Assembly: GCF_000423045.1 (NCBI RefSeq)
Contig: NZ_KE383972.1
Coordinates: 391,670 to 455,669 of the forward strand
Source: Christiangramia portivictoriae DSM 23547
GTDB lineage: Bacteria; Bacteroidota; Bacteroidia; Flavobacteriales; Flavobacteriaceae
DNA length: 64,000 nt
Direction: 5' to 3'
Part shown: positions 12,292 to 20,565 of the stretch, piece after piece
How positions within the stretch are numbered: the stretch's first letter is position 1
Layout: the number at the start of each line of letters is the position of its first letter
The notes under the pieces: generated by a model
Told to the model about the DNA's origin: nothing
The model's database searches: none
The model's input: only the letters and a program-made list of their open reading frames with translations
Translations under genes and position numbers: made by a program

Positions 12292-13008
12292 CTAACTCTT
12301 CCCTAAAGAATTCAGGATATCTATCTGATGTCCTTCTTCTAAATTGAAACCTGGTTTCCCTTTTCGTGGAAAGATAAAACTGAATTCAGTATCGAATGCA
12401 GCCCAGCTTTCAGCCAGTCCAAAATCATTGTTCGCGTTGGTCTTTTCTGGCCTTGAAAATGTCGTTAATTCTGAAGAATAATCAGATCCTACGGCGTCTT
12501 CACCCGGAAACAACATTCCATCATTAATTTCTGAGTACACTACTACAGAAGCTCCGCTGGCGCCAGGAAGGTCAAAAATATTGATTGAAAAGCTATCAAG
12601 AACAGCATCCTTTTTAGTAATATCCTTCACCTTGAAGCTGTCCTTAAAATTATTTCTTGGATGTGCATAAATGGTAGCACCACCCGCGTCTTCAGAAATA
12701 GTCTTTAAGTCGGCATAGGCAGTTTTAAGAATGGAGTCACAGGTGATCAGGATTCCTTTTATCTGGTAACCTTCTTCCACAAATTTCTTCACTGCATTCT
12801 TTGTAGATTCTTCTACCACGTCGATAAGAAGAATATCTCTTCGATTTAAATGTCTTATAGCGTAGCCCTGGTTATATTTTCCATCTACTTCGTCACCCTT
12901 TATGATGAATGTATCCGGGATCATCTTTAAAAATTTGCCTTGTTCACCTTGTTCAATAAACTCAGCTGACTGACTGTGAACGATCTCCATTTTATCTACT
13001 TCTTTCAT
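12292..13008 (-). CDS. Metallo-beta-lactamase-fold protein lacking metal ligands
   Basis: This 238-residue protein follows the MBL fold order. There is an early 'GYAIRHLNRRDILLIDVV' strand pair, a strand-loop at 84-95 where the HxHxDH motif should be, a 'FDLPGASGASVVVYSE' segment where PGHTPGSV normally stands, and 'GMLFPGEDAVG' in place of LFTGD. All expected His/Asp metal ligands are replaced (ITCDSILKTA; PGA instead of PGH). It is therefore probably a non-catalytic or re-purposed member. ATG 13008 is preferred to the GTG at 13029. It lies 81 bases downstream of the PPTase gene on the same strand and may belong to the same transcript. Confidence 0.65.
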   Translation of the reverse strand: MKEVDKMEIVHSQSAEFIEQGEQGKFLKMIPDTFIIKGDEVDGKYNQGYAIRHLNRRDILLIDVVEESTKNAVKKFVEEGYQIKGILITCDSILKTAYADLKTISEDAGGATIYAHPRNNFKDSFKVKDITKKDAVLDSFSINIFDLPGASGASVVVYSEINDGMLFPGEDAVGSDYSSELTTFSRPEKTNANNDFGLAESWAAFDTEFSFIFPRKGKPGFNLEEGHQIDILNSLGKS

Positions 13009-13089
13009 AATTTTGATTTTTGATTTCACGATTGAAGATACAAAAGTGGTTGCCTGTCAACAATGGAGTTTTTAAATGTTTAACTGCTT

Positions 13090-13641
13090 TTAGCAGTTAA
13101 TTAACGGAAAGCAAACGGCGGCAAACCTGCCGTGGTGAGTGATGGAAACTGGCAACCTGGTGGAGTTGTTATTGAAGGCTAATTCTGGAATTCCGAATTT
13201 ATTTTTATAAATCTTAATGTCCTCAAGCTCTATACCGGTTCGATGGCAAAACTGCCTTGTAAAATCATTCCAGTAATCGCTACTATATGGAATTTTTATG
13301 TGATCTATAGGTTCAGTAGCAAGCCAGGCGTAGAGATGCTCTTTATCCTGATCTATTTTGATATCATAAATAGCAGCGTCCTTTTTAATATGAAGTTCGT
13401 TCAGGTCACAAATGTAACTTAAAGGATCAAATCTGGCTGTAAACTGAAAGATTCTTTGATGAGCCTTATATGCTGTTTCCTTCATCGCCCATATTTTCCA
13501 GATGGAAAGTTCCGGATTATCCTGTTTAGCAAGTTGAGAGATCTCTTTTTCTGAAAAAATTTTCGATAAAAACCGAATGTTCCGGATTCTTGGTTTTGCC
13601 AGGGCTATTTTTAGATCGATGATATCGTTTCCAATAATCAA
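13090..13641 (-). CDS. 4'-phosphopantetheinyl transferase superfamily protein
   Basis: This 183-residue enzyme is of the single-domain-to-Sfp-like PPTase superfamily. It shows the Mg-binding start IGNDIIDL (3-10) and the W-x-x-K-E-x-x-x-K motif (WAMKETAYK, about 51-59). Its role would be to load phosphopantetheine on the ACP encoded immediately upstream; the TTG start overlaps the ACP stop as TTGA, so the two are coupled. A separate AcpS elsewhere in the genome would serve fatty acid synthesis. A small hairpin (13082-13098) overlaps the stop codon but lacks a good T run. Confidence 0.85.
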   Translation of the reverse strand: MIIGNDIIDLKIALAKPRIRNIRFLSKIFSEKEISQLAKQDNPELSIWKIWAMKETAYKAHQRIFQFTARFDPLSYICDLNELHIKKDAAIYDIKIDQDKEHLYAWLATEPIDHIKIPYSSDYWNDFTRQFCHRTGIELEDIKIYKNKFGIPELAFNNNSTRLPVSITHHGRFAAVCFPLINC

Positions 13642-13889
13642 GTATTCAGTTTTTTAAGAATGATGTCCCTTGCATCGCCTACGGTCATCATCCCCTCCAT
13701 GGAATTGTTATCTATTTCAATATCGAATTCATCTTCGACGTCCAGTACTACATCTACAAGATTGGCAGAATTGATCTCAAGATCATTTAAGAAGTTTGTG
13801 CTTTCATTAAACTCTAAAAGACCTTCCCTGCGTTGTGTATAAGGAGTAACGATCGTTTTTATTTTGGCAATTATATCCTGATTGGTCAT
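13638..13889 (-). CDS. Dedicated acyl carrier protein
   Basis: This 83-residue four-helix ACP carries the pantetheine attachment Ser at Ser41. The motif is E-I-N-S-A-N-L instead of the common D-S-L, followed by the acidic helix 'VDVVLDVEDEFDIEID'. The altered DSL motif marks it as a specialised carrier rather than the housekeeping AcpP. It sits between the ketosynthase (3-base gap) and the PPTase (4-base overlap) and probably carries the chain made by the cluster enzymes. Confidence 0.92.
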   Translation of the reverse strand: MTNQDIIAKIKTIVTPYTQRREGLLEFNESTNFLNDLEINSANLVDVVLDVEDEFDIEIDNNSMEGMMTVGDARDIILKKLNT

Positions 13890-13892
13890 TTC

Positions 13893-15167
13893 CTAGTTAT
13901 TATAGCGTTTAAAGATAGTGACCGCATTTACATCTCCAAAACCAAAACTGGCTTTAGCGGCAATATTAATTTCGGTTTCTATTGTTTGCTTCGGAATACT
14001 TTGCGGGCTTATTAAACCGGCAATTTCAGCATGAGTATCTTCACAATTCATATTTTCAAAAACAAATTGATTTTTGATCTGAAGAATTGTTGCAACGCTT
14101 TCTATAGATCCGGAAGCGCTTAAACAGTGTCCGGTCATTCCTTTCAATGAATTTATTATTGGAAAGTCTTTCCCAGACCGGCCAAGTGCGGTTGTCCAGT
14201 TTTTAATTTCAGTAGCATCCCTGGTAGTTGCGGTAAGATGACCGTTGATATAGTCAATTTTATTCGGCTCTATTCCCGACGAGTTTAAAGCATCTGTTAT
14301 ACATCTTTGCACAGCATCATTATTTGCTGCGGTCATACTTCCACCAGATCTCTGGCCGCCACTATTAACCGCACCACCAAGAACTTCTGCATAAATAATC
14401 GCTCCTCTTGCAAGCGCAGACTCCAGAGATTCAAGCACCAAAGCTCCTGCTCCGCTTCCCGGCACGAAGCCTGTAGCAGTTGCACTCATGGGCCTCGAGG
14501 CTGCTTCTGGGTTATTGTTATAATTTCCTGGCAAAATTCTCATAGCATCGAATCCTCCCCAAACATATGGACCATCGTCACTACAACTACCAACGAGCAT
14601 TCTTTCAGCCTTCCCGGAAAGGATGCGATCATACCCCATGATGATCGCTTCTGTTCCTGTTGTACATGCCGAAGAATTGGTGGTGACCTGGTTTCCACAT
14701 CCCAGCATGCCTCCCAGATACGCGCTAATCCCGCTGGCCATCGTCTGTATCACACTGGTGCTTCCAAGTCTCCTTGTTTTACCTGCATCGATCAAATGAA
14801 TAGCTTCCCTGAATTTGTCCACTCCCAGGATACCAGTTCCAAATATAATCCCTGAATTCCAGTCTGGCCCCTCTTCCGAAGAAACCGGAAGCATTGCATC
14901 TTTCCATGCATCTACCCCGGCGATAACTCCATAAAGGAGTCCGCTGCTGTTTAAACCTTTCTGCTGAAGTGGAGTAAAATACTGGTCTACTATCTCCTGG
15001 TTTACAGGTGGCTTCCCTCCTATCTGGCAGCTAAAATTGAGATCTTTCAAAACCTGGTGAAATTTGATTCCGCTAACCCCATTCCTTAGAGCCTTTTCAA
15101 ATTTGTCAATTCCTATCGCATTTGGTGCGGCAACACCCAGTCCGGTGATCACAACTCTTCTTTTCAT
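13893..15167 (-). CDS. Beta-ketoacyl-ACP synthase, FabF-like
   Basis: This 424-residue condensing enzyme starts MKRRVVITGLG. The catalytic Cys168 lies in NSSACTTG, His311 in the GHLTATTRDATE segment, Lys343 in SLKGMTGH and His348, giving a full Cys-His-His set. Normal FabF has N-A-H-G-T-S-T-P; here it is N-G-H-L-T-A-T-T, a divergence typical of specialised KS such as those in aryl-polyene or other secondary pathways. ATG 15167 is preferred to the 27-residue upstream extension, which runs into the dehydratase gene. It extends the acyl chain on the cluster ACP. Confidence 0.9.
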   Translation of the reverse strand: MKRRVVITGLGVAAPNAIGIDKFEKALRNGVSGIKFHQVLKDLNFSCQIGGKPPVNQEIVDQYFTPLQQKGLNSSGLLYGVIAGVDAWKDAMLPVSSEEGPDWNSGIIFGTGILGVDKFREAIHLIDAGKTRRLGSTSVIQTMASGISAYLGGMLGCGNQVTTNSSACTTGTEAIIMGYDRILSGKAERMLVGSCSDDGPYVWGGFDAMRILPGNYNNNPEAASRPMSATATGFVPGSGAGALVLESLESALARGAIIYAEVLGGAVNSGGQRSGGSMTAANNDAVQRCITDALNSSGIEPNKIDYINGHLTATTRDATEIKNWTTALGRSGKDFPIINSLKGMTGHCLSASGSIESVATILQIKNQFVFENMNCEDTHAEIAGLISPQSIPKQTIETEINIAAKASFGFGDVNAVTIFKRYNN

Positions 15168-15169
15168 TT

Positions 15170-15610
15170 TTAAGGTTTTAGGATCATTCCTGAAATTTCT
15201 CCACGACACAAAACCTTTTCTTCTGCATTCGTCATGGTTACGTGACACTTCAGCTTGTTAAATCTGAAATACTGTTTTACAGATCTTACAAATACTTTTT
15301 CTCCGGGATACACGGGAAGTAAAAAATCTACATGAGAAGAGGTCATGGCTATTTGAAGAGGTTCCACCACTGTTTGTTCTATATCTAAAAGATAGATTCC
15401 TAGAGAGACCACTCCAATCTGTGCCATACATTCGGCCAGGATCACTCCCGGTGTTACGGGGAGATTCTTAAAGTGGCCACTATAAAAATCGTGTGTTCGT
15501 TTAAAAAGATAATTTCCTTCGATCTTATCCTTACTAACAGCAGTGATCTCATCTACAAAAAGGAAGGGATCTGTATAAGGCAACCTGGAAATGATATCAG
15601 TACTTTTCAA
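15170..15610 (-). CDS. FabZ-like 3-hydroxyacyl-ACP dehydratase (hotdog fold)
   Basis: This 146-residue protein has the FabZ active-site strand-helix 'YSGHFKNLPVTPGVILAE' with His46 and Glu60, the catalytic pair for removing water from 3-hydroxyacyl-ACP. The start is TTG at 15610, since no ATG is available between the in-frame stop and the first family-like residues. It is two bases from the KS start, so tightly coupled. A 3-ketoacyl-ACP reductase is not in the cluster and must come from elsewhere or from the neighbouring SDR. Confidence 0.88.
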   Translation of the reverse strand: MKSTDIISRLPYTDPFLFVDEITAVSKDKIEGNYLFKRTHDFYSGHFKNLPVTPGVILAECMAQIGVVSLGIYLLDIEQTVVEPLQIAMTSSHVDFLLPVYPGEKVFVRSVKQYFRFNKLKCHVTMTNAEEKVLCRGEISGMILKP

Positions 15611-15620
15611 AAGTGCGAAT

Positions 15621-16415
15621 TTACATTAAGTGTTCACCACCATTTACGGGAATGATGCTGCCGGTGATCCACGATGCTTCATCCTTACTCAAGAGATACA
15701 CCACATTGGCTACGTCATCTGGAACTGTTAATCTTTTAAATGGATTGTGCTTTAACGCATGTTCCCTTAGGGTTTGATTGCCTGGGATCATCTGGAAAGA
15801 CCTGGTCACGGTTATGCCTGCCTGGATGCAGTTCGCACGAATACCTTTCTCAGCAAATTCCAGGGCGATTGCCCTTGTCAAAGATTCCAGAGTTACCTTG
15901 GCTGCAGAAACTGCTGCGTAATTTTTCCATGCTTTCTGATTCCCTTCGCTGGTAAAAGCGATGATGCGCGCGTCTCTGGCAAATAAATCATGATGGTACA
16001 GCTCCTTGGTCCAGTCGTACAGACTTAACGCCATGGCATCTATGGTTAACTGAAAATCGATATTACTCAAATTTTGATCTGCTCCCAACATGGGTTTTAG
16101 ATTACCCTTCGCAATACTGTGCAATAGTGTTCTAACTTTACCGTGACTTCCAATAGTACTTTTAATACTGGCTACAAGTTCATTCCGGTTTTCCCTCTGA
16201 ATTGCGTCTGCATTGAAACTACGAAATTCCACACCGGTTTTGCGAATACTTTCAAATGCATCTTCAATCTCTTTCAATTCAGATCTCCTATCCCTATGAA
16301 TAATGATAACGTTCATCCCATGCAGAGCAAGTTTCTTTGCACTGGCATATCCAAGACCGCTGCTACCTCCAAGGATGATCGCCCAATAGTCTGTATTTCT
16401 GAATTCCTTTACCAT
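15621..16415 (-). CDS. SDR family oxidoreductase with enoyl-ACP-reductase-type active site
   Basis: This 264-residue Rossmann protein has the nucleotide motif G-G-S-S-G-L-G (16-22) and, instead of the common Y-x3-K, the pattern Tyr166-x6-Lys173 (YAAVSAAK). Tyr-x6-Lys is the enoyl-ACP reductase signature of the FabI/FabL type. Other features are 'HSIAKGNLKPM' and a C-terminal 'SWITGSIIPVNGGEHL' typical of SDRs. It probably reduces the trans-2-enoyl-ACP made by the adjacent dehydratase. It overlaps the type III PKS gene by 7 bases. A ketoreductase role cannot be ruled out. Confidence 0.8.
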   Translation of the reverse strand: MVKEFRNTDYWAIILGGSSGLGYASAKKLALHGMNVIIIHRDRRSELKEIEDAFESIRKTGVEFRSFNADAIQRENRNELVASIKSTIGSHGKVRTLLHSIAKGNLKPMLGADQNLSNIDFQLTIDAMALSLYDWTKELYHHDLFARDARIIAFTSEGNQKAWKNYAAVSAAKVTLESLTRAIALEFAEKGIRANCIQAGITVTRSFQMIPGNQTLREHALKHNPFKRLTVPDDVANVVYLLSKDEASWITGSIIPVNGGEHLM

Positions 16416-17461
16416 TCTATTAAAATTCTCTGCGCAGAAAATCCAGGACCAAAACTTAGCATCAAACCCTGTTCTCCTTTCGCAATATCTTTGTTCAAAA
16501 ATCTTTCGAGAACGTACAGCACTGTTGCGCTGCTCATATTTCCGAATAATTTAAGTACTTCACGGGTATCATTAATATTCTTACCTAAGTTACCAAAAAG
16601 TTCAGAAACAGTCTGCACTATTTTCTTACCTCCTGGATGAAATATCAAATGTTCCACCTTTTCTATGGAAGAGCCATGTTTGTCCAAAAATGGATGAATG
16701 ATCTGGGGGAAATGCTGAGAGATCGTTTCAGGCACTGCCGGATCAAGAATCATTTGCAAACCTTCGTTTTTAAGATCGAAACCCATCATTCGTGTGGCAT
16801 CGTAAAAATGGTACATTTCCTCACCAATGATCCTTGGAGACTGCAGGCCTTCTTCCGAAGATAATAAAACACAAGCGGCACCATCTCCAAAAATGGCGGC
16901 GCTAACCATATTTGCCATGCTTAAATCTGTAAGCTGAAAGGTTGCAGTTGGACTTTCAACTGCGATCACAGCCGCACGTTTCCCGGGATTGGATTTTAAG
17001 AATTGATGAGCGTAAATCATTCCAGAGATACCCGCAGCACAACCCATTTCTGTAACCGGCAAACGTGTTATATCCTGTTTTAAGTCTAACTCGTTGATCA
17101 GGTAAGCATCCAGTGAAGGAATCATGATGCCGGTACAACTTACAGTAATAATGAAATCTATACTTCGAGGATCCCAGTTTGCAGCGACCAGTGACTTTTG
17201 CAGGACCTGGCTACCCAACTTCTTTACCTCTCTTACATAAATATTATTCTTGTCTTCAAAAGAGGTGGCAGTAAAAACTTCTTCAGGATCCATGATAGAA
17301 TAACGCCTGTCCACCGCTGCGCCTTCAAAAATCTTTACGACTTTTCTTCGAAATCTCTCATCCTGCTCCCCAAGCCAATCATTTACCAGGGGAATAATAT
17401 CGCAGGTTTCCCGTGAATATTCAGGTAGTTGCTTCTCTACGTTAACTATATGTACGCTCAT
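16409..17461 (-). CDS. Type III polyketide synthase (chalcone/stilbene synthase family)
   Basis: This 350-residue protein carries the full type III PKS triad: Cys141 (EMGCAAG), His275 (FHPGG) and Asn308 (FGNMSSAT), with the C-terminal S-F-G-P-G loop at 337-341. Members condense an acyl starter with several malonyl units and cyclise the product to resorcinols, phloroglucinols or pyrones. The cluster ACP, KS, DH and ER suggest the starter is an acyl chain made in situ, as in the ars and srs alkylresorcinol operons of Azotobacter and Streptomyces. Chain length and cyclisation mode cannot be read from the sequence. Confidence 0.93.
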   Translation of the reverse strand: MSVHIVNVEKQLPEYSRETCDIIPLVNDWLGEQDERFRRKVVKIFEGAAVDRRYSIMDPEEVFTATSFEDKNNIYVREVKKLGSQVLQKSLVAANWDPRSIDFIITVSCTGIMIPSLDAYLINELDLKQDITRLPVTEMGCAAGISGMIYAHQFLKSNPGKRAAVIAVESPTATFQLTDLSMANMVSAAIFGDGAACVLLSSEEGLQSPRIIGEEMYHFYDATRMMGFDLKNEGLQMILDPAVPETISQHFPQIIHPFLDKHGSSIEKVEHLIFHPGGKKIVQTVSELFGNLGKNINDTREVLKLFGNMSSATVLYVLERFLNKDIAKGEQGLMLSFGPGFSAQRILIEW

Positions 17462-17463
17462 AA

Positions 17464-18171
17464 TTATTTTTTAATGATCCATAAATAACGAAATGCCCAT
17501 TTCCACTGGATTGAATAGGTGTCAACATTGATAGTATTCATATATTTATGAATATCATGTCGTTTAAAACCTCTTAAAATTGAGATTAGACCATCTTTTC
17601 GGGCGATTTCATTTTGCACAAAGACTGCACAGAAAAGTTTAAACAACCTGTAGGCTAATGCGGAACGTTGCAGATCGTTGATAATCACAGCAATATTAGA
17701 TTGGTCATAAAACTGATGCAATATTTCAGGAATTTGAGAATCCTTAAAGTGATGTAATGTAAGGGTACACATTAGCACATCAAACTGAGAGTTTCGAAAT
17801 TCTGCACTAAAGATGTTTTGAGTTAGAAATTCCAGTTCAGGATAATCCTGAGACAAATTGCAGGCAATTTTTATGGCGTGAGCATTTGCATCTACTCCCG
17901 TGAGCTTGAGTTTCAAGTTTTCCCTTCTGCCCCATTCAGCAATCTTCCGTAGCATCGCTCCATTTCCACAACCAACATCAACAATGGAGATTTCCCTGGT
18001 TGGATCGAGATCTAACTTTTTAAGACCATCAATACTAATTTGATTGCCACCAAGCAAAGAATTGACCCGTTCAAGATCATCCAGAGTAACTCTTAATTCT
18101 TCGCCTCTAAAGTCAAAATCGTCCATGATCTCTGGTTCCAAAGATCTTTTTGTGGTGTCTATTTTATACAT
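17464..18171 (-). CDS. Class I SAM-dependent methyltransferase
   Basis: This 235-residue methyltransferase has motif I 'VDVGCGNGAML', a post-I acidic residue in 'LTGVDANAHAI' and the motif-IV-like 'DVLMCTLTLHHF'. The C-terminal part has an unusual basic, partly hydrophobic region (about 180-235) that may contact membrane or lipid substrate. ATG 18171 is preferred, because an upstream extension to 18252 would overlap the FAD gene by 89 bases, whereas this start overlaps by 8. Its likely role is O- or C-methylation of the type III PKS product. Confidence 0.85.
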   Translation of the reverse strand: MYKIDTTKRSLEPEIMDDFDFRGEELRVTLDDLERVNSLLGGNQISIDGLKKLDLDPTREISIVDVGCGNGAMLRKIAEWGRRENLKLKLTGVDANAHAIKIACNLSQDYPELEFLTQNIFSAEFRNSQFDVLMCTLTLHHFKDSQIPEILHQFYDQSNIAVIINDLQRSALAYRLFKLFCAVFVQNEIARKDGLISILRGFKRHDIHKYMNTINVDTYSIQWKWAFRYLWIIKK

Positions 18172-19288
18172 GCATTTCCTTTCCGTGGGTTTTTTTGATG
18201 ATCTTTGGAAGCAATCCTGGTACGCGTTGAAGAATGCCTTGAGTGATATCACTCATCCTTTCGTGCAATAGTACCTTCTGAAGAATTCTGCCAGTACGCA
18301 TCCTCGAGCTAAAATTTTGTTTCCACGATTTAATATAGGTAGAAGCTATATTTGTACGATATCCAGGGTTTAATTCAAATTTCAGAAGAGCTTCAGAAAC
18401 CAGCTTCGCGCTACGTATGGCCATCGCCATACCATTTCCAGATAAAGGATGGACAAGACCTGCAGCGTCGCCAATCATAAGAATGTGATCTTCAACCTGA
18501 GTTTTACTGTCAAAAGAAATTTGGGCAATGCTCAGAGGTTTTTCAAATTCCAGCGTGGAGTTCCTGAAAAAATCGTTTAAATATGGATTTTCAGAAAGCA
18601 CCTTATGCTCAAAATCCTTAATCTTACCATGCTTTTGAAAAGATTCATAGGTAGCAAGATAACAGACGTTCACAGTACCAAGATCGGTTTTTGAAAGTCC
18701 GCAGTATCCTCCATTAAAATTGTGTAGAGCGACCAGATCGTCAGGAAATCTTTGATGATCATAATGCGCTTTGACAGCTATCCAGGCTGACCTCTTGTTG
18801 ATAAATCCTCGATCAAGGTTCTTATCCAGATTGGAACGTTTACCATACGCACCAATAACAAAATTCGCTTTTAGACTATGGCCGTTTTTACAGTTTACTA
18901 AGAATTCATCATTTTGAAAATTGCAGTTTTCCGCTGTAGTATGCATAAACTTACCGCCTGCTTTCAGGAATTGCTGAAAGAAGAGATGATCCAATGTGTA
19001 ACGGCTAATACCCAACCCACCTAGCTCCAACGTGCATTCCAGTAAGTTTCCCTTAGCGGTACTAAATTCCAACCTGGAAAGTTCTGGTACATGAGTATTC
19101 TGCAAGTCTACTCCCAGAAAATTTAAATACGGTTTTACTTCGTTGGATAAATATTCTCCGCAGACCCTATGTCTGGGATATGAATCTTTTTCAATCAGGC
19201 ACACAGTAGCTCCAGATTTTAATAGATGAATACCTGCCACCAAACCAGCAAGCCCTCCACCCAAAATAACTACATCTGCTGAATTCAT
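18164..19288 (-). CDS. FAD-dependent oxidoreductase, geranylgeranyl-reductase-like
   Basis: This 374-residue flavoprotein has the dinucleotide motif GGGLAG (10-15), the PRHRVCGEYLS motif (38-48) of the geranylgeranyl reductase/CbrA-like branch, and the second FAD motif 'GDAAGLVHPLSGNGMAMAI'. Members reduce or hydroxylate lipid-like substrates. ATG 19288 (MNSADVVILGG) is preferred because the longer frame begins within the T run of the upstream terminator. As first gene of the operon it may hydroxylate the aromatic ring or reduce a side chain. Which of the two is unknown. Confidence 0.88.
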   Translation of the reverse strand: MNSADVVILGGGLAGLVAGIHLLKSGATVCLIEKDSYPRHRVCGEYLSNEVKPYLNFLGVDLQNTHVPELSRLEFSTAKGNLLECTLELGGLGISRYTLDHLFFQQFLKAGGKFMHTTAENCNFQNDEFLVNCKNGHSLKANFVIGAYGKRSNLDKNLDRGFINKRSAWIAVKAHYDHQRFPDDLVALHNFNGGYCGLSKTDLGTVNVCYLATYESFQKHGKIKDFEHKVLSENPYLNDFFRNSTLEFEKPLSIAQISFDSKTQVEDHILMIGDAAGLVHPLSGNGMAMAIRSAKLVSEALLKFELNPGYRTNIASTYIKSWKQNFSSRMRTGRILQKVLLHERMSDITQGILQRVPGLLPKIIKKTHGKEMHV

Positions 19289-19312
19289 ACATTGAATGTA
19301 AGTAATAAACAT

Positions 19313-19337
19313 AAAAAATCCCGGTTAATACCGGGAT
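19313..19337 (-). terminator. Intrinsic terminator after the OmpA lipoprotein gene
   Basis: Read on the minus strand, ATCCCGG pairs with CCGGGAT around a TATTAA loop and is followed by six T. It separates the OmpA/lipocalin operon from the polyketide cluster, whose first start codon lies only about 25 bases further on. Confidence 0.85.
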
Positions 19338-19364
19338 CTTTCAAATTATATTTAATGTGGTGTA

Positions 19365-20069
19365 TTAATTACCATTTTGTTGCTCTGCCTGTTCTTTAGC
19401 CTTCTCCTTTAATTCTTCATTTGCAACTATGGCAAGTTCTACCCTTCTGTTCTTCGCTCTGCCTTCTGCGGTAGAGTTATCATATTTTGGCTGGGTTTCA
19501 CCATACCATTTGGTTGTAAACCTGCCTTTTTCAATACCATTATCAACAAGGTAGCCTGTTACTGCCTGTGCTCTGTTCTTTGATAAAGTTAAATTGTAGC
19601 TATCGCTTCCCGTATTATCGGTATGACCTTCTACTAAAACATTGGTTTGAGGATATTCTTTGAAAATTCCTACCAGTTTGTTTAAAGTTTCCTGTGATTT
19701 AGCGTTGATCGCATACTTTTCGGTATCAAAATAAACACCACTATTTTCATCAAAAGTAACGTTGATACCTTCTCCAACTCTTTCTACTTCAGCTCCAGGA
19801 ATTTCGTTCTCGATCTTCTTGGCCTGTTCGTCCATTCTGTTACCAATAATGGCTCCGGCTGCACCACCAACAACACCACCAATAATAGATCCAAGAGCGG
19901 TATTTCCATCACCGGTATTATTACCAATAACACCACCAATTACCGCACCTCCCGCAGTACCTATTACGGCACCTTTTTGTTTATTGTTAGCGTTCTGCAC
20001 TGCATCACATCCAAATAAAAGTGTGGATGCGAAAAGTATTACGAACATTCTATTAATTACTGTTTTCAT
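19365..20069 (-). CDS. OmpA-family lipoprotein with glycine-zipper segment
   Basis: This 234-residue protein has a lipobox LFGC (Cys21) and a glycine-zipper-like region (about 33-78, repeats of 'GGVIGNNTG' and 'GGVVGGAAGAIIG' type). It also has a C-terminal OmpA-like peptidoglycan-binding domain with 'VEGHTDNTG' and 'NRRVELAI'. It is likely anchored in the outer membrane and bound to peptidoglycan (Pal-like). A charged tail (KEKAKEQAEQQ) follows. It lies 13 bases downstream of the lipocalin-like gene and is probably co-transcribed. Confidence 0.9.
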   Translation of the reverse strand: MKTVINRMFVILFASTLLFGCDAVQNANNKQKGAVIGTAGGAVIGGVIGNNTGDGNTALGSIIGGVVGGAAGAIIGNRMDEQAKKIENEIPGAEVERVGEGINVTFDENSGVYFDTEKYAINAKSQETLNKLVGIFKEYPQTNVLVEGHTDNTGSDSYNLTLSKNRAQAVTGYLVDNGIEKGRFTTKWYGETQPKYDNSTAEGRAKNRRVELAIVANEELKEKAKEQAEQQNGN

Positions 20070-20082
20070 AGCTTCTGTATAA

Positions 20083-20565
20083 TTATAGTTTAGTAAAATT
20101 CATATTAATTGTAAACGGTGAGCCGTCAAGACTTACTGTTTGTGACCAGGTCATATTATTATCAGTTAAACTCTGTAAATTCAGTCTGAATCCTTCATTT
20201 CCTGTTGTAGATTTGTAATTTTCATTAGTAGGCTTCAAAAGAAAATCATAGATACCCTCAGGAGTGTTATCTTCATCTATAGACCATATAAAATAATTCG
20301 CCTCACCATCACAACCTGTTCCTGAAACAGTATAGGTACCACGATTATTATTGGATACAAAATCCCAGGTACTATTTTCAAAACAGGAAGCCTGTGCTTC
20401 ATTAAATAAGGTCACATTAAACTGTCCTGGATTATTAGGATAGGTAACACTTGTCAATGTCCATTCACCGTCAAAAGTTTTTCTGGCTTCTTTCGCAACT
20501 TTGCTGGTTCCACCACAAGATGCTAGCAGTACCACTGCTGTAAGTAAAATAAATATCTTTTTCAT
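20083..20565 (-). CDS. Lipocalin-like lipoprotein
   Basis: This 160-residue protein has a lipoprotein signal (LASC, Cys17) followed by a beta-rich domain with a 'GEWTLTSVTYP' start and 'FENSTWDFVSNNNRGTY', typical of Bacteroidota lipocalin-like (DUF4923/Lipocalin_4-type) proteins. Two Cys (in 'EAQASCFENS' and 'VSGTGCDGE') may form a disulfide. The ligand is unknown. It probably forms an operon with the OmpA lipoprotein. Confidence 0.8.
   Translation of the reverse strand: MKKIFILLTAVVLLASCGGTSKVAKEARKTFDGEWTLTSVTYPNNPGQFNVTLFNEAQASCFENSTWDFVSNNNRGTYTVSGTGCDGEANYFIWSIDEDNTPEGIYDFLLKPTNENYKSTTGNEGFRLNLQSLTDNNMTWSQTVSLDGSPFTINMNFTKL

Follow-up and report, generated by a model that had tools for sequence, protein, structure and literature searches.

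The window, i.e. the whole stretch of 64,000 nucleotides analysed, contains an operon of eight minus-strand genes that code, in this order, for an FAD enzyme, a methyltransferase (MT), a type III polyketide synthase (PKS), an SDR, a dehydratase (DH), a beta-ketoacyl-ACP synthase (KS), an acyl carrier protein (ACP) and a phosphopantetheinyl transferase (PPTase). The family assignment of each gene was backed by Pfam. The features are listed by coordinate:

13090..13641, minus strand, 4'-phosphopantetheinyl transferase (ACPS family, 38.8 bits, cut-off 25)
13638..13889, minus strand, acyl carrier protein, attachment site Asn-Ser41 (Pfam, NCBIfam, alignment)
13893..15167, minus strand, beta-ketoacyl-ACP synthase (FabF/FabB-like), cassette clade (Pfam, NCBIfam, tree)
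15170..15610, minus strand, hotdog dehydratase, FabZ-like (Pfam, NCBIfam, alignment)
15621..16415, minus strand, SDR, putative enoyl-ACP reductase (ER) of FabL type, Y166-x6-K173 (NCBIfam, PDB match, alignment)
16409..17461, minus strand, type III polyketide synthase, C141/H275/N308 (Pfam, alignment, structure model)
17464..18171, minus strand, SAM-dependent methyltransferase (Pfam; best NCBIfam model PRK06202, below cut-off)
18164..19288, minus strand, FAD-dependent oxidoreductase of the geranylgeranyl reductase/aromatic hydroxylase superfamily (Pfam, NCBIfam)
19312..19343, minus strand, terminator-like hairpin of 14 pairs between an OmpA-like gene and the operon (pattern match only)

The FAD gene starts with ATG at 19288 and overlaps the MT gene (ATG at 18171) by 8 bases. 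Gaps of 2 (MT-PKS), 10 (SDR-DH), 2 (DH-KS) and 3 bases (KS-ACP) and overlaps of 7 (PKS-SDR) and 4 bases (ACP-PPTase) separate or join the other genes, with TTG as start codon of DH (15610) and PPTase (13641). The coordinates thus bear out the layout given in the original prediction, eight same-strand genes with junctions between an 8-base overlap and a 10-base gap. A scan of 12950-19450 yielded 10 terminator-like sites versus 4.8 expected, with the hairpin at 19312..19343 having by far the most pairs; sigma-70-like sites were not in excess (15 found versus 16.3 expected) with a consensus that does not cover Bacteroidota promoters. The gene at 12292-13029 was not assigned to the operon, as it had no Pfam or NCBIfam match and its cluster occurred in only 18 of 80 loci (best 80 of 249 relatives). 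Genes for TerC, an aldehyde dehydrogenase, a transposase, an alpha/beta hydrolase and others were inserted or located downstream in single relatives and were likewise not considered operon parts.

Alignments with the best 80 of 249 relatives, which were used for all active-site counts in this paragraph and the next, revealed conserved active sites, in keeping with the original prediction, which had judged those of KS, DH, SDR, ACP and PKS to look intact. The PKS belongs to the type III superfamily (PF00195, 69 bits; PF02797, 67.9 bits; cut-off 27) and its triad C141/H275/N308 was kept in 80/80; the structure model (pLDDT 84.4) gave PKS11 and CylI as best VIA structure matches. The His and Glu of DH were conserved in 78/78 and Ser41 of ACP in 74/74. 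The KS residues C168/H310/K342/H347 were present in 78/80, the remaining two rows being gapped there; the two histidines had been numbered one higher before (H311/H348). Halogenases head the fold-match list of the FAD enzyme (model pLDDT 85.0), and its Foldseek matches comprised flavin halogenases, hydroxylases and a GG-reductase-like protein. A function as halogenase was nevertheless discarded: WxWxIP, which we take to be the motif of flavin-dependent halogenases, was found in 0/165 FAD relatives. The enzyme may be a monooxygenase or a reductase.

Y166 and K173 of the SDR were conserved in 44/44, and a Val occupied the position of the FabG Tyr in all 44. The best NCBIfam model was FabL, at 137 of 328 bits, and the best PDB relative was also FabL. 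By these features the protein looks like a FabL-type enoyl reductase, and an assignment as ketoreductase (KR) was rejected on the same grounds. Read by the Y-x6-K pattern, which is that of enoyl reductases, the operon holds KS, DH and ER without a KR, i.e. it does not encode a complete type II fatty acid synthase (FAS; KS, KR, DH, ER and ACP). A FabG is encoded elsewhere in the genome (343.4 bits, cut-off 297.75), as are the housekeeping FabF and ACP; the cassette KS shares only 34% identity with its housekeeping counterpart. In the KS tree, in which the polyene row has a branch length of 10 and the root within the cassette clade is unsure, the cassette KSs formed a clade separate from FabF. 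From the type II mini-FAS proposed originally, a discrete set with its own ACP tied to the PKS is retained, but the set lacks a KR, and an ER was present in only 44 of the 80 loci.

The operon was found in 33 of 395 sampled Bacteroidota genomes, among them 30 of 41 from the Flavobacteriaceae, the family of the window. At thresholds of E below 1e-150 for PKS and below 1e-165 for KS, the 33 genomes with the PKS were exactly the 33 with the KS, and both genes lay on one contig at a distance of 1498-2653 bases. A second sample at class level (395 genomes, overlapping the phylum sample) had all of its 26 PKS genomes (E below 1e-100) within the 32 KS genomes. That no PKS of the phylum sample fell between 63% and 35% identity is a property of this sample, as PKSs at 51-59% occur in the class sample. 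Regular separation of the PKS from the ACP and KS genes, named beforehand as evidence against a joint system, was not observed from the PKS side (33/33 and 26/26).

Among the best 80 of 249 relatives, the recognised operon genes had the same order and strand in 80/80 loci, a conservation that is more than chance. By tblastn, FAD, MT, DH, KS or ACP were absent only in L009, L038, L057 and L080, because the contig ends there; the FAD-MT-PKS trio was together in all loci except the truncated L009 and L038. The ER was absent in 36 loci, and the PPTase was present in 56 and not seen in 24; both are optional operon members. After removal of a duplicate (L143 is the genome of L070), 105 loci became 104 distinct ones, of which 102 contained the cassette KS; the two others are probably L057 and L080, which are cut by contig ends. 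With the strict thresholds and the ORF caller used, all eight genes were found in only 28/104 loci; ORF picking had overlooked the ACP in L022, L067, L069 and L074 and the DH in L025, all of which were recovered by tblastn.

The association did not hold in the opposite direction, as 10 genomes carried the cassette KS without this PKS. There it lay beside DarB/DarH resorcinol genes (two genomes), GNAT and glycosyltransferase genes (three genomes), or other genes. The DH-KS-ACP block, accompanied by ER or PPTase, is a portable unit that is not exclusive to this PKS. This occurrence, together with the frequent absence of ER and PPTase and the use of acyl-CoA by many type III PKSs, would fit an operon serving two co-switched lipid jobs, in which the PKS would draw on general acyl-CoA or on the acyl-ACP of housekeeping metabolism while the KS-DH-ER-ACP block makes a separate lipid or only tunes chain length. 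We regard such a division as unlikely, since neither sample contained this PKS in a genome lacking the KS and the cassette also adjoins the resorcinol enzyme DarB.

We consider it reasonably probable that the product of the operon is a phenolic lipid that is methylated and oxidised or reduced; an alkylresorcinol-type compound is its most likely form, an alkyl hydroquinone or quinone a possible one, and its tail would derive from the acyl-ACP of the cassette. The PPTase would activate the ACP, on which KS, DH and ER, with FabG and malonyl transferase of the cell, would extend the chain and leave it saturated. The PKS would then take the chain from the ACP, add malonyl units and close the ring; methylation by the MT and oxidation or reduction by the flavoenzyme would follow. 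The PKS-KS linkage, the collinearity among the relatives and the intact active sites support this pathway, as do the location of the cassette beside DarB/DarH, the similarity of the PKS model to PKS11 and CylI, the ER rather than KR features of the SDR, the FabG, housekeeping FabF and ACP encoded elsewhere in the genome, and the low identity of the cassette KS to its housekeeping counterpart. The missing KR, the often missing ER and PPTase and the low number of complete loci argue against it, as does the ability of HidC, PKS11 and other enzymes to function with no cassette linked to them.

The resorcinol assignment is challenged by Pks11, the nearest relative by sequence and structure, which is described as an alkylpyrone synthase (PMC6274091). 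A pyrone tailored by MT and FAD enzyme would also agree with the Phe, rather than Trp, at the site mapped to ArsB Trp281 (Phe228; F in 104/105, Y in 1/105). However, an aromatic residue at this site is reported to favour aldol closure (PMC6274091), and trios of PKS, MT and oxidoreductase with a reported product yield alkylresorcinols or quinones (PMC10896814, PMC9927152), so that we judge a pyrone to be quite improbable. Residue 228 itself says little on the ring type, because Pks11, described as an alkylpyrone synthase, has Trp and the resorcinol synthase CylI has Leu at this position.

The FAD-MT pair also occurs in other Bacteroidota. In 47 loci, homologous FAD and MT genes accompanied a UbiA prenyltransferase in place of the cassette and a type III PKS from a different lineage (on average 27.0% identical to the operon PKS); T3, MT and FAD were all present in 47/47. 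The cassette KS was found in 0/47 of these, and UbiA in 0/105 operon loci, the loci having been chosen partly by type. The PKS tree placed the operon set nearer to an ICMT-linked set than to the UbiA set, with a support of only 81 at a point where long branches meet. A FAD match not belonging to the operon occurred in 70 genomes, 62 of which were examined: 59 giving 60 loci (G072 twice), plus G064, G111 and G033. G421, G437, G440, G520, G562, G602, G671, G705 and the second match of G703 were left out. Within five genes of the FAD gene, 43 of the 60 loci had PKS, MT and UbiA, the UbiA being called by a model built from L130, L131, L146 and L147 (Pfam-confirmed); three had PKS and MT, four MT only, one PKS only and eight none of these, and one had no FAD frame. 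Weak matches to the ER model (SDRs, 58-87 bits; 7/43 UbiA loci and 2/4 MT-only loci) and to ACP (36-37 bits; 2/43 UbiA loci) were not counted as cassette. Seven further T3PKS loci yielded nothing more; in L123, L126, L129 and L145 no ORF exceeded the model threshold.

As the MT-FAD pair occurs with another type III PKS and UbiA, we infer that the greasy tail is supplied in one case by the cassette and in the other by UbiA. The low PKS identity, the 16/60 FAD loci without UbiA within five genes and the partial selection of loci by type could also mean that two unrelated pathways share common MT and FAD families, a possibility that we hold to be less likely but of real weight. For both FAD and MT, the distance to the UbiA set (39.8 and 31.7% identity) does not exceed that to the deepest members of the operon group (37.4 and 27.5%), the trio is complete in every UbiA locus, and 25 operon genomes have one FAD match each (E up to 1e-30), all of which speak for alternative tails. 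Bacteroidota may have two routes to a single type of greasy phenol or quinone. More tentatively, the routes might be interchangeable, a shared FAD-MT pair finishing the type III PKS ring of tailed phenolic lipids that form one class, possibly redox-active quinones resembling polyketide quinones, with an isoprenoid (UbiA) or acyl (cassette) tail; the PKS lineage would change with the route, and the cassette would also serve DarB-type resorcinol synthesis. If the two are truly alternative, both strain types allow a direct test of the role of the finished lipid. Should the cassette indeed feed the PKS, it would represent a compact type II route that provides a type III PKS with a dedicated acyl-ACP, and a natural part usable in the production of defined phenolic lipids.

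The operon is common in Flavobacteriaceae, yet no product of this eight-gene cluster was found in the literature searched, in line with the original prediction, which knew no characterised system with exactly this gene set. Surveys list T3PKS clusters in this family, and an Aquimarina T3PKS family in one of them had no MIBiG match; identity with the cluster described here is not implied (PMC7440613, PMC9860996). Koreenceine, which surfaced as a Flavobacterium/type III PKS literature match, is the product of a Pseudomonas type II cluster (PMC6498172).

Chain supply from an ACP has precedents, as ArsB/ArsC, GCS and SCO7671 are type III PKSs using acyl-ACP (PMC6274091). The ars system of Azotobacter likewise has dedicated fatty-chain synthesis, the ArsA FAS feeding ArsB/ArsC directly from its ACP (PMC6274091); it is a multidomain, PUFA-synthase-like type I system, whereas discrete type II enzymes and a free ACP are encoded here. 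In cylindrocyclophane synthesis (CylB/CylD/CylH/CylI; 26-27% identity), type I PKSs extend the chain, and CylI, close to the operon PKS model, is a resorcinol synthase fed from ACP and a type I PKS. The dialkylresorcinol/flexirubin (dar) clusters are linked through the cassette, which is divergent from DarB and DarH in G099 and G391, the only cassettes beside which DarB was found. DarB is of FabH/StlD type, unlike the type III PKS here; none of the eight operon proteins reached the DarB model cut-off, and the operon contains no Dar gene and hence no DarA-DarB pair. Likened by gene content, the closest systems are those in which a type III PKS is co-operonic with a methyltransferase and a flavin oxidoreductase, as was found here. 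These are hidABC (hierridin, cyanobacteria) and a Planctomycetota operon, which combine type III PKS, methyltransferase and (FAD) oxidoreductase (PMC10896814), with pentadecyl- and heptadecylresorcinols reported as PKS products in a heterologous host (PMC10896814), and srs (Streptomyces) and pkqABC (Mycobacterium smegmatis, Streptomyces), which share PKS, methyltransferase and hydroxylase/oxidoreductase and, for pkq, give products reported as electron carriers (PMC9927152). A linked acyl cassette is not described for srs and pkqABC in the accessible text of that source (PMC9927152), and the operon here differs from hidABC and its Planctomycetota counterpart by the order FAD-MT-PKS and the additional ER, DH, KS, ACP and PPTase. 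It can be grouped with the PKS-MT-oxidoreductase systems typified by hid, srs and pkq, as a variant that carries an acyl cassette.

The operon lies on the minus strand from position 19288 to 13090 and comprises, in this order, genes for an FAD oxidoreductase, a methyltransferase (MT), a type III polyketide synthase (PKS), an SDR, a dehydratase (DH), a KS, an ACP and a PPTase, with junctions from an 8-base overlap up to a 10-base gap. The family of each of the eight proteins was backed by Pfam; gene positions and families together bore out the original prediction of eight same-strand genes with tight junctions. The genome, 3.27 Mb in size, gave one match to PF00195, the operon PKS; the window lies on its contig C3. 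Features of the operon and its flanks:

19365-20565, minus strand: OmpA-like protein and small lipoprotein, upstream of the operon
19343-19312: 14-pair terminator-like hairpin, separating the upstream OmpA-like gene from the operon (pattern scan)
19288-13090, minus strand: the eight-gene operon
12292-13029, minus strand: conserved protein after the PPTase gene, present in 18 of 80 relatives' loci, with no match in Pfam or NCBIfam

For the PKS relatives, one genome per species was scanned and the best 80 of 249 were kept. By title names, all of these 80 were from Bacteroidota, and the closest among them were from Christiangramia (80-82% identity). Order and strand of the recognised operon genes were kept in 80/80 loci. 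In tblastn, FAD, MT, DH, KS and ACP were absent only in four loci at contig ends (L009, L038, L057 and L080). The SDR gene was found in 44/80 loci (missing in, e.g., Flavobacterium and Pedobacter) and the PPTase gene in 56/80 (missing in, e.g., Maribacter, Aequorivita and Kaistella); at stricter thresholds, 28 of 104 distinct loci had all eight genes. The clusters of the OmpA-like protein and the small lipoprotein occurred in 37/80 and 36/80 loci, respectively, mostly directly before the FAD gene, a sign of one inherited place.

In the sample of 395 genomes from the phylum, a PKS at E below 1e-150 was present in 33, of which 30 were among the 41 genomes of the window's family. A KS at E below 1e-165 identified the identical 33 genomes, with PKS and KS on one contig, 1498-2653 bases apart. 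The overlapping class sample (395 genomes) contained 26 genomes with the PKS (E below 1e-100), all 26 within the 32 with the KS, and the operon KS clade was found close to the PKS in 102/104 distinct operon loci. The original prediction had proposed a neighbourhood search across Bacteroidota; a PKS regularly apart from the KS was not found in it, the two being linked in 33/33 and 26/26 genomes. The operon is real and widespread. One operon KS (G084:C2) carries a single in-frame stop, through either decay or a sequence error, and a second MT-like gene lies close to the operon in two genomes (L170, 10096-10818; L175, 3111-3824).

The operon SDR is predicted to be of the enoyl-reductase (ER) type. 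Its top solved relative was an enoyl-ACP reductase (3oic, which we take to be FabL of Bacillus subtilis), and its top curated family was FabL, at 137 of 328 bits and hence under the cut-off. It shows the pattern Tyr-x6-Lys, and the place of the FabG Tyr is Val in 44/44 relatives. With an SDR of this type, the operon would hold KS, DH and ER and lack a ketoreductase. A FabG is encoded elsewhere in the genome (343.4 bits, above the cut-off of 297.75), as is a FabF-like KS, adjoined by an ACP, that is 34% identical to the operon KS. In the same genome, the stretch G000:C3:458000-476000, which begins about 2.3 kb beyond the window end, contains an aryl-polyene-like cluster with KS, ACP, DH, SDR, lyase-like and FAD genes (lyase and cluster names are our reading); its KS scored only 127 bits against the cassette KS model.

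The DH-KS-ACP block, here termed cassette, also occurred separately: ten genomes of the two samples had its KS (47-56% identity) and no operon-type PKS. In G099 and G391, ER-DH-KS-ACP-PPTase is divergent from genes for DarB and the acyltransferase DarH; DarB scored 634.8 and 614.7 bits against a cut-off of 550, and DarH 453.7 and 443.1 bits against one of 300. A 300-aa protein before DarB, without a family match, is presumably DarA. Glycosyltransferase and GNAT genes neighbour DH-KS-ACP in G127, G077 (here together with ER) and G046, GNAT and GT2 being Pfam-confirmed in the first two and look-alikes by sequence start in G046. The cassette adjoins no nameable partner in G399 and G471, one G399 copy being accompanied by a KAS III-like gene (our reading); the remaining genomes were G452, G537 and G705 (5.4 kb contig). 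In a quick-search tree, operon and cassette KSs were separate from four FabF-type rows (SH-aLRT 97) and the polyene row (99). The ACP site was Asn-Ser in 73/74 operon ACPs and in the ACPs of the DAR (2/2), f60 (2/2, plus the second G399 copy by eye), f75 (2/2) and G705 cassettes (f, GTDB-like family group), and Asp-Ser instead in 2/3 GNAT cassettes and the housekeeping ACP. In loci L187 and L188 the cassette precedes, by eye, glycosyltransferase-like and asparagine-synthase-like genes, possibly another use of acyl-ACP.

With the FAD protein as query, matches at E up to 1e-30 were obtained in 95/395 genomes class-wide, of which 25 were operon genomes with a single FAD match each. From the other 70 genomes 60 loci were fetched; 43 had, no more than five genes away, a type III PKS, the MT and a UbiA-family gene, and eight had none of these. 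Close FAD homologues without PKS, MT or UbiA within five genes are found in L189, L191, L195, L199, L200, L230 and L232, and one FAD homologue (G072:C26) has a single in-frame stop, again through decay or a sequence error. Four loci obtained earlier, with UbiA assigned by Pfam, brought the UbiA set to 47 loci, all with PKS, MT and FAD. The cassette KS was present in 0/47 UbiA loci and UbiA in 0/105 operon loci, a split that is partly due to choice because loci were picked by type: the operon loci by PKS or KS, the UbiA loci from the FAD matches that lay outside the operon. Independent of that choice, no locus of either kind contained the tail gene of the other. Some family groups hold both kinds in different genera, as in f59 (operon, G597; UbiA, G439, G470, G574 and G655) and f56 (operon, G395 and G672; UbiA, G467). 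This possible UbiA alternative would be the part most surprising to a specialist.

Mean identities within the operon set, within the UbiA set and between them were 71.7, 43.0 and 27.0 for the PKS, 50.9, 44.4 and 39.8 for FAD, and 46.9, 42.6 and 31.7 for MT. The seven deepest operon members shared 53.6% (PKS), 37.4% (FAD) and 27.5% (MT) with other operon members. FAD and MT are therefore as near to the UbiA set as to deep operon members (39.8 vs 37.4 and 31.7 vs 27.5), and the PKS is distant. Judged from these identities, the FAD-MT tailoring pair appears common to both kinds of loci, but the PKS does not. Operon rows fell on one side of a branch in the FAD tree (support 96) and of a long branch in the PKS tree (support 100, length 1.95), where they did not join the UbiA set (support only 81). 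We infer that the PKS may have been exchanged, or greatly changed, together with the tail supply. In other Bacteroidota (L112-L122 and further loci) a type III PKS is adjoined by a protein of roughly 160-180 aa, forming a Bps-like pair; in L112 and L117, the two loci checked, this protein is a methyltransferase of the ICMT family.

T3PKS clusters of Flavobacteriaceae are listed in surveys (PMC7440613, PMC9860996), and DAR and flexirubin genes have been described (PMC3992019). In the open-access literature searched, no paper was found that describes a type III PKS trio linked to a discrete type II cassette, or the UbiA counterpart; this agrees with the original statement, which knew of no characterised system with exactly this gene set. 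Type III PKS-MT-oxidoreductase trios are already known from hidABC and from Planctomycetota (PMC10896814, PMC8086630) and from srs and pkq (PMC9927152), and a dedicated acyl supply from Azotobacter (PMC6274091, PMC13291983) and for CylI (PMC8086630). The kind of trio is known, and its combination with a discrete type II cassette would be a new variant.
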